Shown piece by piece: positions 2,961-54,964 of a stretch of DNA of 64,000 nucleotides. Origin of the DNA: Niastella populi (GTDB lineage Bacteria > Bacteroidota > Bacteroidia > Chitinophagales > Chitinophagaceae); contig NZ_LWBP01000188.1 in NCBI RefSeq assembly GCF_002078015.1, forward strand, positions 310,001 to 374,000, in the 5' to 3' direction. The position numbers were made by a program, and so were the translations under genes. The notes beneath the pieces are model-generated. The model searched no databases. It was not told the origin of the DNA and saw nothing but the letters and a program-made list of their open reading frames with translations. Positions within the stretch are counted from its first letter, which is position 1. Every line of letters begins with the position of its first letter.

Positions 2961-3932
2961 ATGAAGAAAATCAAGTACTACTACAATACCAATACTCTCC
3001 GATATGAAAAACTGGAGACCCCTCTGCACGTAAAGCTGCTGCGGGTGCTCGGCTTTATATCGGCCGCTATTGTTACCTCTATAATTATCGTTTCCATCGC
3101 TTACCGGTATTTTCCCTCTACAAAGGAGAAGGCATTGATGCAGTACAATGAGCAACTGCAGGAGCGCTATTGGGTGCTCGATGAGCAGGTGGCCAAAATG
3201 CAGCAGCGCATGATCCAGCTCGAAGAGCGCGATAATGATATTTACCGCACCATTTTCGAGGCCAATCCCATTCCCGACAGTATGCGGGCGAAAGACCTGG
3301 CCCAGCAAAAGGAATTGGAAATGGTGGCCAGCATGACCAATTATGAGCTGGAAAACAGCATAGTACATTCTCTTCGCAACCTGGAGAACCGCATGGTGGC
3401 CCAGGAAAAATCATATGTTGAAATAACCGGATTTATCAAGAACAAGGAGCAACTGCTTGCCTGTACGCCGGCCATTCAGCCGGTTAGCAACAGCGACCTC
3501 AAACGGGTGGCTTCGGGTTTCGGTTACCGCATCGACCCGGTTTATAAAACGGTGAAGTTCCACGGCGGCCTCGATTTTGCCGCTCCGCAGGGAACGCCTA
3601 TTTATGCCACAGCCAACGGCGCGGTTAAAACAGCCGGCAACCTCGGCAATGGCTATGGTAACCACGTGGTGGTGAACCATGGTTATGGTTACGAAACCCT
3701 CTATGGCCACATGTACCGCATAAAAGTAAAACCCGGCGAACGTATCAAACGCGGGGAGATCATCGGCTGGGTAGGCAGTACCGGAAAATCAACAGGCCCG
3801 CACTGCCATTACGAGGTACATAAGAACGGCCGACACCTCGATCCCGTTTACTTCTTCTACAACGATCTTTCACCCGAACAATTTGACCGACTGCTGAAGA
3901 TGTCATCTTCAAGCAACCAGAGCTTTGATTAA
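2961..3932 (+). CDS. M23 family metallopeptidase (LytM domain), membrane-anchored
   Basis: Probable peptidoglycan endopeptidase, or regulator of one, acting in the periplasm. ATG 2961 is chosen because the protein then begins MKKIKYYYN, a start I associate with this Bacteroidota M23 group; an upstream in-frame ATG at 2925 would add 12 unrelated residues. Residues 1-25 are polar, one transmembrane helix covers about 28-48 (VLGFISAAIVTSIIIVSIAY), and a coiled-coil-like segment spans about 55-160. The C-terminal LytM domain (about 185-310) has the zinc ligands of active enzymes: H201 and D205 (FHGGLDFA) and H281/H283 (HCHYE), plus H250 (YGHMY). It is therefore likely catalytic rather than a degenerate activator. 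It is divergent from alaS. Confidence 0.9.
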   Translation: MKKIKYYYNTNTLRYEKLETPLHVKLLRVLGFISAAIVTSIIIVSIAYRYFPSTKEKALMQYNEQLQERYWVLDEQVAKMQQRMIQLEERDNDIYRTIFEANPIPDSMRAKDLAQQKELEMVASMTNYELENSIVHSLRNLENRMVAQEKSYVEITGFIKNKEQLLACTPAIQPVSNSDLKRVASGFGYRIDPVYKTVKFHGGLDFAAPQGTPIYATANGAVKTAGNLGNGYGNHVVVNHGYGYETLYGHMYRIKVKPGERIKRGEIIGWVGSTGKSTGPHCHYEVHKNGRHLDPVYFFYNDLSPEQFDRLLKMSSSSNQSFD

Positions 3933-3934
3933 AA

Positions 3935-3966
3935 TGATAACGTGATAATATGCTAATGTGATAATG
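3935..3966 (+). repeat. Octamer array (TGATAATG type)
   Basis: Four 8-bp units (TGATAACG, TGATAATA, TGCTAATG, TGATAATG) start three bases after the M23 stop codon. This is one of the short-period arrays described in the summary. In the 356-bp gap to the next gene, the rest (3967-4185) shows nothing coding that I can support. Confidence 0.8.
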
Positions 3967-4185
3967 GAATACAGGAGCAAATTACCGGTTGTCAAGTCGT
4001 ATCTCGCAATATTTCGGTTGCCGGGTTCACAGTTTTTTGCAAACTGCAGTTTTAACCAGTTTCACCATTGACAGTTTTAAATGTTATTCGAACAATTTTA
4101 ATGTCAGCCATGTTATTGGCTACCGGTTTGTCTGTTGTCTGAATAAGCAACTGGTTTTCAGTCGCTGGTGGTTTGTTTTTTATTA

Positions 4186-8200: not shown

Positions 8201-8206
8201 TCAATT

Positions 8207-8348
8207 AGCTAATTTGATAATTCGATAATTCGATAATCCCGACTAAAGCCGGGACAAGTTGTGATAATGGAATACAAGAATACAAATAGCTGATATGCTT
8301 TACTAGCAAATTATCGAATTATCGAATTATTACATTATCAAATTATCA
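8207..8348 (+). repeat. Inverted pair of octamer arrays between hmuY and hmuT
   Basis: The left array has four units of the CGATAATT type (8207-8238); the right has five of the AATTATCG type (8309-8348). Bases 8217-8237 and 8310-8330 are perfect 21-bp inverted repeats with a 72-bp loop, which contains a smaller CCCGACT/AGCCGGG hairpin. In mRNA this would be a long AU-rich stem in the middle of the hmu operon. Confidence 0.85.
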
Positions 8349-8360
8349 CATTGCTACACT

Positions 8361-18189: not shown

Positions 18190-19131
18190 CTACACCCACT
18201 CAACGGGATGCAGGCATGCCTGCCACAATTTGTCTTCTTCACTTCCGGCCGGGGGTTGATAATTATATTCAAACCGTACGGTGGGCGGCAGGCTCATTAA
18301 AATGCTTTCGGTGCGGCCGTTTGTTTTTAGTCCGAACAGCGTGCCGCGGTCATGTACCAGGTTGAACTCTACATACCGGCCCCGGCGGATCTCCTGCCAG
18401 TGTTTGTTCGCTTCGGTATAAGGTGTTTGTTTTCTTTTCTGAACGATCGGCAAATAAGCATTGATAAACGCATCGCCGCATGTTTTGCCGAAATTTAACC
18501 AGAACTGAACATCCTTACCGGCGGTTGGCCGCTGATGGTCATAAAAGATGCCGCCAATACCACGGCGCTCTTTATTGCGATGCCAGTTCACGAAATAATT
18601 ATCGCACTCTTTTTTGAAGGTGGGGTAAAAGCCGGCGTCAAAAGCGTCACAGGCATTTTTATAGGTCTGGTGAAAATGCCTGGCGTCTTCTTCAAACAAA
18701 TAATAAGGCGTGAGATCGGTACCGCCCCCGAACCAGCGATCTGCAGCGGCCCCCTCCCAACCTCCCCCCGTGGCGGAGGAGCCTTCTTCATTGTATACTT
18801 CAAACATGCGATAATTGCAATGCACCGTAGGCACGAACGGGTTTACGGGATGCAATACCAGCGACAGGCCGCAGGCGAACCAGCTTTTGCCATTTATCTT
18901 TAATGCATTGCGCATGGTGTCGGTTACTTCGCCAAAGACCACCGAGGTGTTAACGCCGCCTTTTTCAAACACATTTCCATTGGCAATCACGCGGGTTTTA
19001 CCGCCACCGCCTTCGGGGCGTTGCCATTGGTCTTCCCTGAAAGTTGCCTTTCCATCTTCCTGCTCCAGGGCCGCGCAAATACGGTCCTGCAGATCATGTA
19101 TATAATTAACCCAATCTTCTTTAATGCTCAT
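18190..19131 (-). CDS. hemF: Coproporphyrinogen III oxidase, oxygen-dependent
   Basis: Oxidative decarboxylation of coproporphyrinogen III to protoporphyrinogen IX using O2. The 313 residues contain GGGGKTRVIANGNVFEKGGVN (41-61), HPVNPFVPTVHCNYR (94-108), WFGGGTDLTPYY (133-144), NKERRGIGGIFYD and the C-terminal GRTESILMSLPP. Residues 118-129 (SSATGGGWEGAA), just before DRWFGGG, are not expected in this family and are encoded by a palindromic G/C-rich element that keeps the frame. The anaerobic counterpart hemN lies at 27-28.4 kb. Confidence 0.97.
   Translation of the reverse strand: MSIKEDWVNYIHDLQDRICAALEQEDGKATFREDQWQRPEGGGGKTRVIANGNVFEKGGVNTSVVFGEVTDTMRNALKINGKSWFACGLSLVLHPVNPFVPTVHCNYRMFEVYNEEGSSATGGGWEGAAADRWFGGGTDLTPYYLFEEDARHFHQTYKNACDAFDAGFYPTFKKECDNYFVNWHRNKERRGIGGIFYDHQRPTAGKDVQFWLNFGKTCGDAFINAYLPIVQKRKQTPYTEANKHWQEIRRGRYVEFNLVHDRGTLFGLKTNGRTESILMSLPPTVRFEYNYQPPAGSEEDKLWQACLHPVEWV
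18747..18782 (+). repeat. In-frame palindromic element inside hemF
   Basis: About 36 bp, C-rich on the plus strand, with a palindromic CCTCC...GGAGG core at 18761-18779. CCCGTGGCGGAGG is shared exactly with the hairpin at 28539-28566 before hemN. It encodes the glycine-rich insertion SSATGGGWEGAA. The exact borders are estimated from the expected hemF protein. Confidence 0.65.
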
Positions 19132-26041: not shown

Positions 26042-26569
26042 ATGTATAATTACATAAAAGCGCTTCACATTGTTTTTATCGTTACCTGGTTCAGCGGTAT
26101 GTTTTATATCGTGCGCTTGTTTATATACAATACCGAAGCCGGCGAAAAGGATGAACCGGAGAAATCGATCCTTCGCAAACAATTCACCATTATGATCAAA
26201 CGCCTTTGGTTTGGTATTACCTGGCCATCGGCGATCATTACATTGATATTTGGTCCATTATTGTGGTGGAAATTAAACGTTCTGCCCGACTGGCTGATCA
26301 TCAAACTGTTTTTTGTATTGGGTTTATATGCCTATCATTTTTCCCTGCATGTCATTTATAAACAGCACATGCAGGGAATATTCAAATACAGTTCTCAGAA
26401 ATTACGCATATGGAATGAAGTTGCTACTATCTTTTTGGTAGCCATTGTAATGCTGGCGGCGGTAAAACAAAATATGAGTGTGGTATGGGGACTGGCCGGT
26501 TTGGTTGGTTTTGTAGTCGTGCTGATGAGTGCGATAAAGATCTATAAGAACATCAGGGAGAAGAAGTGA
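26042..26569 (+). CDS. hemJ: Protoporphyrinogen oxidase HemJ (CopD/UPF0093-like)
   Basis: Inner-membrane protein proposed to oxidise protoporphyrinogen IX, replacing HemY and HemG in many bacteria. The 175 residues start MYNYIKALHIVFIVTWFSGMFYIVRLFIY, with the conserved H9 of the HemJ family. W-rich helices follow (IIKLFFVLGLYAYHFSLHVIYKQ), making four to five transmembrane segments. Neither hemY nor hemG is in the window, and hemH lies 107 bp upstream on the same strand, so HemJ completes the pathway here. Confidence 0.93.
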   Translation: MYNYIKALHIVFIVTWFSGMFYIVRLFIYNTEAGEKDEPEKSILRKQFTIMIKRLWFGITWPSAIITLIFGPLLWWKLNVLPDWLIIKLFFVLGLYAYHFSLHVIYKQHMQGIFKYSSQKLRIWNEVATIFLVAIVMLAAVKQNMSVVWGLAGLVGFVVVLMSAIKIYKNIREKK

Positions 26570-26572
26570 GGG

Positions 26573-26938
26573 GAATACAGCTGAAAGCGAATACAAATAC
26601 AGCTTCAAGCTGCAAGCCATAAGCTGTAAGTGAATACAAATACAGCTTCAAGCTGCAAGCCATAAGCTGAAAGCGAATACAAATACAGCTTCAAGCTGCA
26701 AGCCATAAGCTGCAAGTGAATACAAATATAGCTTCAAGCTGCAAGCCATAAGCTGTAAGTGAATACAAATACAGCTTCAAGCTGCAAGCTGCAAGCTGTA
26801 AGTGAATACAAATACAGCTTCAAACTGCAAGCCATAAGCTGTAAGCGAATACAAATACAGCTTCAAGCTGCAAGCCATAAGCTGCAAGTGAATACAAATA
26901 CAGGCGAAAGCCTAAAGCCTAAAGCCGAAAGGCAAAAG
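26573..26938 (+). repeat. 43-bp tandem repeat (about 7.3 copies) with a heptamer tail
   Basis: Units start with GAATACAAATAC at 26589, 26632, 26675, 26718, 26761, 26804, 26847 and, truncated, 26890; the spacing is exactly 43 bp each time. A partial unit stands at 26573. Within a unit the sub-word AAGCTGC/AAGCCAT/AAGCTGT repeats every 7 bp. The tail 26904-26938 is five plain heptamers (GCGAAAG, CCTAAAG, CCTAAAG, CCGAAAG, GCAAAAG). The array starts 4 bp after hemJ and fills the 415-bp gap to the convergent hemN. No coding is supported here. Confidence 0.95.
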
Positions 26939-26984
26939 CAGAACACAACCTGAGGCCGATAGCAAATAAAGCGTTTGTGCAACA

Positions 26985-28538: not shown

Positions 28539-28566
28539 AAAAAACCTCCCGTGGCGGAGGTTTTTT
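28539..28566. terminator. Bidirectional terminator-like hairpin upstream of hemN
   Basis: AAAAAACCTCC and GGAGGTTTTTT form an 11-bp stem around CGTGGC, flanked by A-run and T-run, so it could work on both strands. It lies 112 bp before the hemN start. The core CCTCCCGTGGCGGAGG is nearly the same as the palindrome inserted in hemF. Confidence 0.8.
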
Positions 28567-54008: not shown

Positions 54009-54833
54009 GTGAGTCAACCATCGTATCAGATCAAGTTACCGCAGTTTGAAGGTCCGTTCGACCTGTTACTGTTCTTCATTGAACGGGATGAACTGGATAT
54101 TTATAATATTCCTATCAGTAATATCATCAAGGATTTCCTTGACTATATTCATGGCCAGGAGCAGTTGAACATAGAGCTTTCGAGCGAGTTCATTTTGTTC
54201 GTATCAACGCTTATGCGTATTAAGGCCCGCATGTTGCTTCCCCGTAAAGAGCTGGATGCGCAGGGCAATGAAATAGATCCCCGCCAGGAACTGGTTGACA
54301 AGATCCTTGAGTACAAACGCTTTAAGGAAGCATCGGCCAGGATGGCTGAAATGGAAGCCATTCGCATGCTGATGGTGCGCCGTGGCAACCTCGCCAAAGA
54401 AATTGCCGCCATTGGTGAAGAAAGTGGAGAGGGAACTGAAATTCAAACCATTACGCTTTTCAAATTGATGAAAACATTTGAGAAGGTAATGAAACGCGTT
54501 GACCAGCGGAATGTGAAGCCCGTGCATACAGTTGTGAAATACAACTATACCATGGAAGAAAGCCGCCATTATGCATTGGAAACGGTGAAAAAAGAAAAGG
54601 TAATGGCGTTTGAAAAAGTATTCGACATTTGTAAAGACCGTATACACGCCATCTTTTTATTCCTTTCGGTGCTGGAGCTTATTCAAATGAAGTACATGAC
54701 CATTATGGTTGGTGAAGGCCGCAACAACTTCCTGGTTGAATGGAACGAGAACTGGGAGCAGGATATTGATCCCAATCAGCCGCCGATCAATCCTGATGAC
54801 GATCCTGACAGACAACCGGAATCGGTATTATAA
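54009..54833 (+). CDS. scpA: Segregation and condensation protein A
   Basis: Kleisin of the SMC-ScpAB complex that compacts and segregates chromosomes. GTG 54009 is chosen because it gives SYQIKLPQFEGPFDLLLFFIERDELDIYNIPIS, the conserved N-terminus. The 274 residues include LNIELSSEFILFVSTLMRIKARMLLP (about 51-76) and a C-terminal winged-helix part (VMAFEKVFDICKDRIHAIFLFLSVLELIQ). scpB and smc are not in the window. The TAA stop lies in an octamer array. Confidence 0.95.
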   Translation: MSQPSYQIKLPQFEGPFDLLLFFIERDELDIYNIPISNIIKDFLDYIHGQEQLNIELSSEFILFVSTLMRIKARMLLPRKELDAQGNEIDPRQELVDKILEYKRFKEASARMAEMEAIRMLMVRRGNLAKEIAAIGEESGEGTEIQTITLFKLMKTFEKVMKRVDQRNVKPVHTVVKYNYTMEESRHYALETVKKEKVMAFEKVFDICKDRIHAIFLFLSVLELIQMKYMTIMVGEGRNNFLVEWNENWEQDIDPNQPPINPDDDPDRQPESVL

Positions 54834-54870
54834 TGTGATAATTCGATAATGTGATAATGTGATAATGAAT
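54831..54870 (+). repeat. Octamer array starting on the scpA stop codon
   Basis: TAATGTGA, TAATTCGA, TAATGTGA, TAATGTGA, TAATGAAT; the first TAA is the scpA stop. Confidence 0.85.
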
Positions 54871-54964
54871 GCAGGCTTTGGTGAGTGTTTCACATGAACG
54901 CTATAATATTTAACTGCCTTTGCCTCGTGGTAAAGGCAGTTTTGTTTTCAGGTGCAGCGGTTCA

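Follow-up and report, generated by a model that had tools for sequence, protein, structure and literature searches.

The hemF insert and the hairpin upstream of hemN

The window, that is the whole 64,000-nt stretch of DNA analysed here, corresponds to positions 310001–374000 of contig C187 in the 8.6-Mb genome of a soil-living Niastella. On its minus strand, at 18190–19131, lies hemF (oxygen-dependent coproporphyrinogen III oxidase), an intact ORF of 313 amino acids with the HemF domain at residues 9–312 (PF01218; Pfam, E 1.6e-126), the closest HemF proteins being those of Niastella species with 87–89% identity. An earlier sequence-only reading had pointed to an insert before DRWFGGG, and this is visible in the translation, YNEEGSSATGGGWEGAAADRWFGGG, where the peptide SSATGGGWEGA stands between YNEEG and AADRWFGGG. 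Its codons were placed at 18748–18780 (minus strand) from the translation and an alignment with 29 relatives. A covariance model built from 11 copies of a dispersed palindromic family, designated R1 (all R1 copy numbers given below are lower bounds, as at most 150 preliminary candidates were scored in each genome), matches the minus strand at 18747–18783 over model positions 1–37 with 49.9 bits (E 8.5e-11 in the window; genome match C187:328747–328783), far outside what chance would give, and the element is taken to extend over about this interval. The insert is a solo 37-nt copy which is translated in frame within a beta-hairpin loop of HemF, and it almost certainly belongs to a dispersed family of coding palindromes.

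The description of the hemF insert as a palindrome holds for the family and not for this copy. Inverted arms as long as 6 nt were not found across it, and it folds no better than its own shuffles (z 0.09). Its palindromic nature is visible in the family and not in the single copy and, the hemF copy alone being unremarkable as a hairpin, it is the family that carries the argument.

Extra residues at the turn before DRWFGGG were found in four of 30 aligned HemF proteins and were absent from the other 26, so that the insert is not conserved across relatives. The carriers are the window protein, that of N. yeongjuensis (L092) and those of a Chitinophagaceae MAG (L103) and a Chitinophagales MAG (L107); the insert DNA of the two MAGs is of the same type as in the window, that of N. 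yeongjuensis of another. None of the 30 proteins has a DUF559 domain at this site. A second HemF loop, after GIFYDYQR, was seen to hold GC-rich in-frame inserts in two Chitinophagaceae MAGs (L103 and L118). The AlphaFold model of HemF (mean pLDDT 76, with a weak C-terminal part) places the insert between strands 102–113 and 131–141, with residues 119–123 below a pLDDT of 50, as would be expected for an exposed turn.

The core of the hemF insert had also been said to recur in a hairpin before hemN, and the 13-mer CCCGTGGCGGAGG is indeed present exactly at 18767–18779 in hemF and at 28548–28560; with up to two mismatches allowed, 22 of 100 shuffles reach or exceed the observed number of matches. 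The hairpin itself (28539–28566) is a perfect 11-bp one, AAAAAACCTCC/GGAGGTTTTTT. Its terminator-like character held up (DNA fold z -4.02), while its proposed identity with the hemF element did not. In an R1 scan of the window, hemF was the sole match below E 1, and 28548 lies outside its three further matches (E 3.2 to 7.7). A genome search for the CCTCC-type hairpin that had been suggested as a check, written as AAAACCTCCN{2,9}GGAGGTTTT, found two places only in 8.6 Mb. Despite the common 13-mer, the hairpin upstream of hemN is not a member of the family. A terminator scan did not list it, which we think is due to its T run lying inside the stem. The placement typical of intrinsic terminators, after genes and with a T run, was not found for the family copies of this genome, which lie mostly within genes. 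Other repeats in the window comprise seven tandem copies with a period of 43 nt at 26536–26965 and, at 3926–3979, 8202–8245, 8301–8360 and 54823–54872, arrays of TGATAATN or its complement that repeat every 8 nt.

Coding palindromes in the genus Niastella

By inspection of the copies in the genome of the window (G000), the family consensus is CTCCTCCCCCACCGGGGGAGGCCGGGAGGGGGCCG, with a stem of 8 bp, a loop of 3 nt and a tail. R1 finds at least 28 matches at E<=1 in this genome and at least 18 at E<=0.01, and further genomic copies of the hemF element, whose absence would have spoken against the earlier reading, are therefore numerous. By reading, 16 of the 18 strong copies lie in frame within a long host ORF, the remaining two being C194:88369 and C199:69382. 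Pfam named the host gene for all ten copies submitted, namely HemF, IcmF, ATP-dependent DNA ligase, MetH (at two sites), a UvrD-like helicase, Mur ligase, CCA/polyA polymerase, 3-hydroxyacyl-CoA dehydrogenase and a glutamine amidotransferase, the last being HisH by our reading. Two copies each are found in metH and icmF, and murC, cca, the DNA ligase gene and the UvrD-like host also carry the element. The host domain is intact on both sides of the in-frame insertions, and the hosts are unrelated in function. Most copies on the same strand as their host encode the peptide SPTGGGREGA and reverse copies encode PLPTSP. Judged from these reading frames, the palindromic element appears to have entered hosts of essential function in frame without breaking the genes. 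The proposal that a second class of element is dispersed in the genome, built as a palindrome and not from heptamers, and serves as a coding insertion is thus borne out by a genome-wide family with in-frame copies.

Weak to moderate family copies recur in proteins L050, L054, L057, L061 and L063 of this genome, with two in one of them; by their motifs these proteins resemble FecR. It was also seen that large paralogous proteins (L045 and L046 of this genome and L126 of G005) have family copies in roughly matching positions, ahead of FFSEIGQ or SFSEIGQ.

Within the species of Niastella the copy number ranges from 0 to at least 57. Against at least 18 in the genome of the window, the lower bounds for the other genus genomes, G001 to G009, are 0, 30, 6, 1, 57, 0, 13, 22 and 41. 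In G005 and G009, 13 of 55 copies examined (from 59 rows, less two weak ones and a pair of duplicates in L066) lie outside any ORF of at least 100 amino acids, and some copies form inverted pairs about 90–130 nt apart. Many intergenic copies have a 5' head with GCGAGG, which was present in 14 of 19 hand-picked copies.

DUF559 nuclease domains and their flanking palindromes

In icmF of the window's genome, an in-frame DUF559 domain (C2:31910–32227) lies between two family copies that face opposite ways, and the same arrangement is present in G002, G005 and G009. Compared with 4xc6, the solved structure of a fused isobutyryl-CoA mutase, residues 142–350 of the query replace residues 179–229 of the chain, and this segment holds both palindromes, the native linker and DUF559. 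These four of the ten genus genomes are the three with the most copies (at least 57, 41 and 30) and that of the window. No DUF559 was found in G004 and G006, for which the lower bounds are 1 and 0 R1 copies, nor in G008 (61% complete), which has at least 22. G003 and G007 have truncated DUF559 forms, and in G001, which has no R1 copy, the domain is intact and lies between nuoF and nuoG. This stand-alone nuoF–nuoG gene (L180, L185, L186 and L188), intact in G001, is truncated in G003, G007 and the genome of the window, and in G001 it is flanked by CCCCCTAAAGGGGG-type hairpins. Over 88 codons the four icmF copies of DUF559 gave pN of 0.02–0.10 against pS of 0.74–0.81, these proportions being reported instead of dN/dS because synonymous sites were saturated. 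The codon comparison indicates purifying selection on the icmF DUF559, which could alternatively mean that the domain has been domesticated within IcmF.

At E<=1e-10, DUF559 was detected in 50 of 117 family genomes (spanning 100 genera) and in 84 of 198 phylum genomes, with many matches in frame within ORFs of 400–1400 amino acids. The loci sampled were the best-scoring ones and are hence a biased sample. Across the phylum, in-frame DUF559 occurs in LeuRS, MetH, AroC, MetRS, CinA and IcmF, and GC-rich palindromes often stand on both sides of it. A Pfam scan, which returned results for all ten host proteins submitted, showed chorismate synthase, homocysteine methyltransferase, the MetH activation domain and MetRS each split into two stretches by DUF559, and also placed the domain in LeuRS, in CinA, in a helicase of Lhr type and ahead of an amino-acid kinase. 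Of the 91 domains tabulated (two of them duplicates), 36 stand alone and 55 lie in longer ORFs, the label "embedded" for domains outside the Pfam scan being based on motifs and ORF length. One LeuRS gene (L195/L286, in G022) was seen to hold two in-frame DUF559 domains at two sites. No intein family (Hint domain) was found in 11 DUF559-bearing proteins scanned and no Rfam match (group I or II intron RNA) at gathering score in ten loci, so that splicing of the DUF559 elements is unlikely.

The model of the DUF559 domain from the window's genome (pLDDT 88.8) matches the structures 3hrl (E 3.2e-8) and 3r3p, the catalytic domain of I-Bth0305I (E 1.1e-4), with E. coli Vsr as a weak further match, and a profile search agrees (3r3p, E 1.1e-5). 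Residues D53, E64, D66 and H70 are invariant in all 67 aligned domains and, by analogy with the Vsr-like fold, are probably catalytic. A homing-endonuclease fold with intact active-site residues is thus found in the DUF559 copies and not in the hemF solo. In a tree of 88 domains over 100 columns, from which two L286 duplicates and one fragment of the 91 were left out and in which many forks are unresolved, the icmF copies of four genera form one group (97/91), and groups were also obtained for ArgB (100/91), CinA (100/78) and the MetH activation site (92/93), while the copies from LeuRS and AroC are intermingled. The tree suggests both persistence at specific sites and jumps to new ones.

GC-rich hairpins (stem of at least 7, GC of at least 0.75) are concentrated within 300 nt of DUF559. 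With loci shorter than 3,100 nt left out (3 of 30 in the family set, 5 of 30 in the phylum set, 1 of 19 for Y1 and 2 of 30 for MetH), 31 hairpins near DUF559 and 10 at a greater distance were counted in 27 family loci (1.91 and 0.15 per kb), and 28 and 14 in 25 phylum loci (1.87 and 0.23 per kb), with none in 18 Y1 control loci and one in 28 MetH control loci (0–0.06 per kb). Over all 30 family loci the counts are 32 near and 13 further out. By the same criterion at least one near hairpin is present at 32 of 52 DUF559 loci and none at 20. Hairpins stand on both sides of 37 of 88 domains (three of the 91, L188 and two L195 rows, being left out), and the left and right hairpins of one DUF559 resemble each other, with a mean best identity of 0.879 against 0.683 when shuffled (300 shuffles, maximum 0.726); inverted and direct pairs show no clear preference (20, 15 and 2 ties).

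Palindrome sequences vary from genome to genome. The pattern CCCCTCTCCN{2,8}GGAGAGGGG was found in 26 of the 117 family genomes, and with genomes treated as independent it is strongly associated with DUF559 (24 of 50 genomes with the domain against 2 of 67 without; Fisher p 3.8e-9) and weakly with Y1 transposase (19 of 66 against 7 of 51, p 0.07). The two pattern genomes with no DUF559 at E<=1e-10, G063 and G069, have 28 and 10 such hairpins, for which loss of the nuclease, a divergent partner and another mechanism are alternative explanations. It should also be noted that the dispersed hairpins of G097 differ in type from those flanking its two DUF559 genes, which does not bear out a simple co-evolution of one palindrome type per genome.

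Three sites in MetH link the two kinds of insertion, with solo palindromes in Niastella and DUF559 with palindromes in other genera. At site 1 (AKIAKEAV to VAGAIGP) a solo palindrome is present in G000, G005 and G009. There G021 and G062 have a solo of another type, G067 (L210) has DUF559 together with palindromes, and G007 has neither. Site 2 (FSLADF to GAF) is occupied by a solo in G000 and by DUF559 in L201 and L202. At site 3, G009 and G021 carry a solo and G073 (L196) carries DUF559, the solo of G021 (GCCCCCCCACCCCCCGAAGGGGGG) being nearly identical to the left palindrome of the G073 element (GCCCCCCCACCCCCCCGAGGGGGG). Site 1 was readable in 14 of 34 proteins and occupancy was counted for site 3 alone, where the segment is of 11–13 residues in 29 of 34 proteins and two were unreadable. 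No target-site duplication was seen at the MetH sites, where the site sequence seems to have been replaced rather than duplicated. The R1 family very probably belongs with the DUF559 elements.

Origin of the palindromes and relation to known elements

The reading favoured here, with some reserve, is that the hemF insert is a solo, non-autonomous or a remnant, of a mobile element made up of a palindrome, a DUF559 endonuclease and a second palindrome. We infer, with similar reserve, that DUF559 probably moves the palindromic family. By its sequence features, the element is best read as an in-frame, apparently unspliced and homing-endonuclease-like one. The DUF559 nuclease would nick or cut unoccupied target sites, or the palindromes themselves, and repair would then copy the element in by gene conversion. 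The palindromes would travel in trans as short passengers, in the manner of REPINs with RAYT, or may remain behind once the nuclease is lost. Since the reading frames of the palindrome are open and its translation gives a small loop rich in Gly, Ser and Pro, splicing would be unnecessary.

Several other origins were weighed. The most serious, though unlikely, is that the palindromes are an RPE-like family with other machinery and that DUF559 inserts independently into palindromes or into the same tolerant loops. The palindromes without DUF559 in G063, G069 and G008 and the mismatch of hairpin types in G097 would fit this, and loops are tolerant sites in any case, but it does not account for the clustering of hairpins within 300 nt of DUF559, stand-alone genes included, for the match between left and right hairpins or for the agreement of the three MetH sites. 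A REP/REPIN family mobilised by RAYT (Y1 tyrosine transposase) would resemble the inverted pairs of G005 and G009, and every genus genome has a Y1 gene; however, Y1 is also present in genomes without copies and its association with the pattern is weak, no R1 match at E<=5 lies within about 1.5 kb of the 19 genus Y1 loci, and among 19 hand-picked copies GTAG is nearby in one and CGTC in none. This origin, with Y1 loci free of family copies and a weak association, was rejected as very improbable.

The single element proposed earlier, acting as terminator before hemN and as coding insertion in hemF, has the exact 13-mer in its favour, and with no R1 match at the hairpin and only two such hairpins in the genome it is most improbable. 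Ordinary variation in the HemF loop with accidentally GC-rich codons can point to the slightly varying loop length among HemF proteins and to the undistinguished folding of the hemF copy, but is barely credible and is excluded by the genome-wide matches of the 37-nt form, which recurs in metH, icmF, the ligase gene and other genes.

The mobile palindrome–DUF559–palindrome element has partial counterparts among described systems. RPEs inserted in frame and intragenic REPs have been reported (PMC3733652; PMC10969869), and RPEs are alike by description in being short palindromic repeats found in many unrelated genes, translated in frame and forming copy families. They differ in belonging to Rickettsia and not Bacteroidota and in their length, about 150 bp as first reported against about 37–55 bp here, and their descriptions, in excerpt, mention no nuclease partner, whereas the DUF559 nuclease accompanies the repeats here. 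REP/REPIN–RAYT systems (PMC3733652; PMC3116915) share dispersed short palindromes, single or in inverted pairs, that flank the gene of a single-domain DNA-cutting enzyme. Their enzyme, as outlined there, is a Y1 transposase and not DUF559 (Vsr/EDxHD-like), their GTAG/CGTC tag is absent from 18 of 19 copies here and, unlike them, the copies of the window's genome lie largely inside genes. The ShiLan insertion of phage methylases (PMC11855218) is likewise open in the host frame, with an endonuclease, and neither intein nor intron; as summarised in that report it is phage-borne with its HNH endonuclease out of frame, whereas DUF559 here is bacterial, in the host frame and linked to palindromes.

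EDxHD has been listed among the homing-endonuclease families (PMC3943268), a DUF559 gene was assigned to it in a section on intein-containing genes (PMC9403480) and a Caulobacter DUF559 protein has been treated as Vsr-like (PMC12907096). EDxHD homing endonucleases such as I-Bth0305I (PMC3943268; PMC9403480) are alike, in the accounts as excerpted, in fold, catalytic-type residues and site-specific families, but I-Bth0305I is encoded in an intron, while no signature of an intein or intron was detected in the DUF559 elements here, which come with palindromes. A literature search, covering mainly papers outside subscription, retrieved no account that pairs DUF559 with palindromes or that describes coding palindromes in Bacteroidota.

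The widest form of the proposal has about an even chance of being right, namely that a Bacteroidota-wide unspliced homing element, a DUF559 of EDxHD type between GC-rich palindromes, inserts in frame into loops of essential proteins that still work, homes site-specifically across genera and spawns dispersed, non-autonomous coding palindromes, the hemF copy among them. The observations suggest an unrecognised kind of selfish DNA. How protein-coding palindromes move is a question to which the Rickettsia accounts, in their excerpted parts, give no answer (PMC10969869; PMC3733652), and a palindrome family that has a candidate enzyme and occurs in large-genome bacteria would open it to testing. If the proposal is true, protein-coding palindromes would gain a candidate enzyme partner, and homing elements would need neither intein nor intron when they enter loops in frame. 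Enzymes of this phylum, LeuRS, MetH and AroC among them, contain unusual Gly/Pro-rich insertions and nuclease domains within their chains, and the proposal would account for both.
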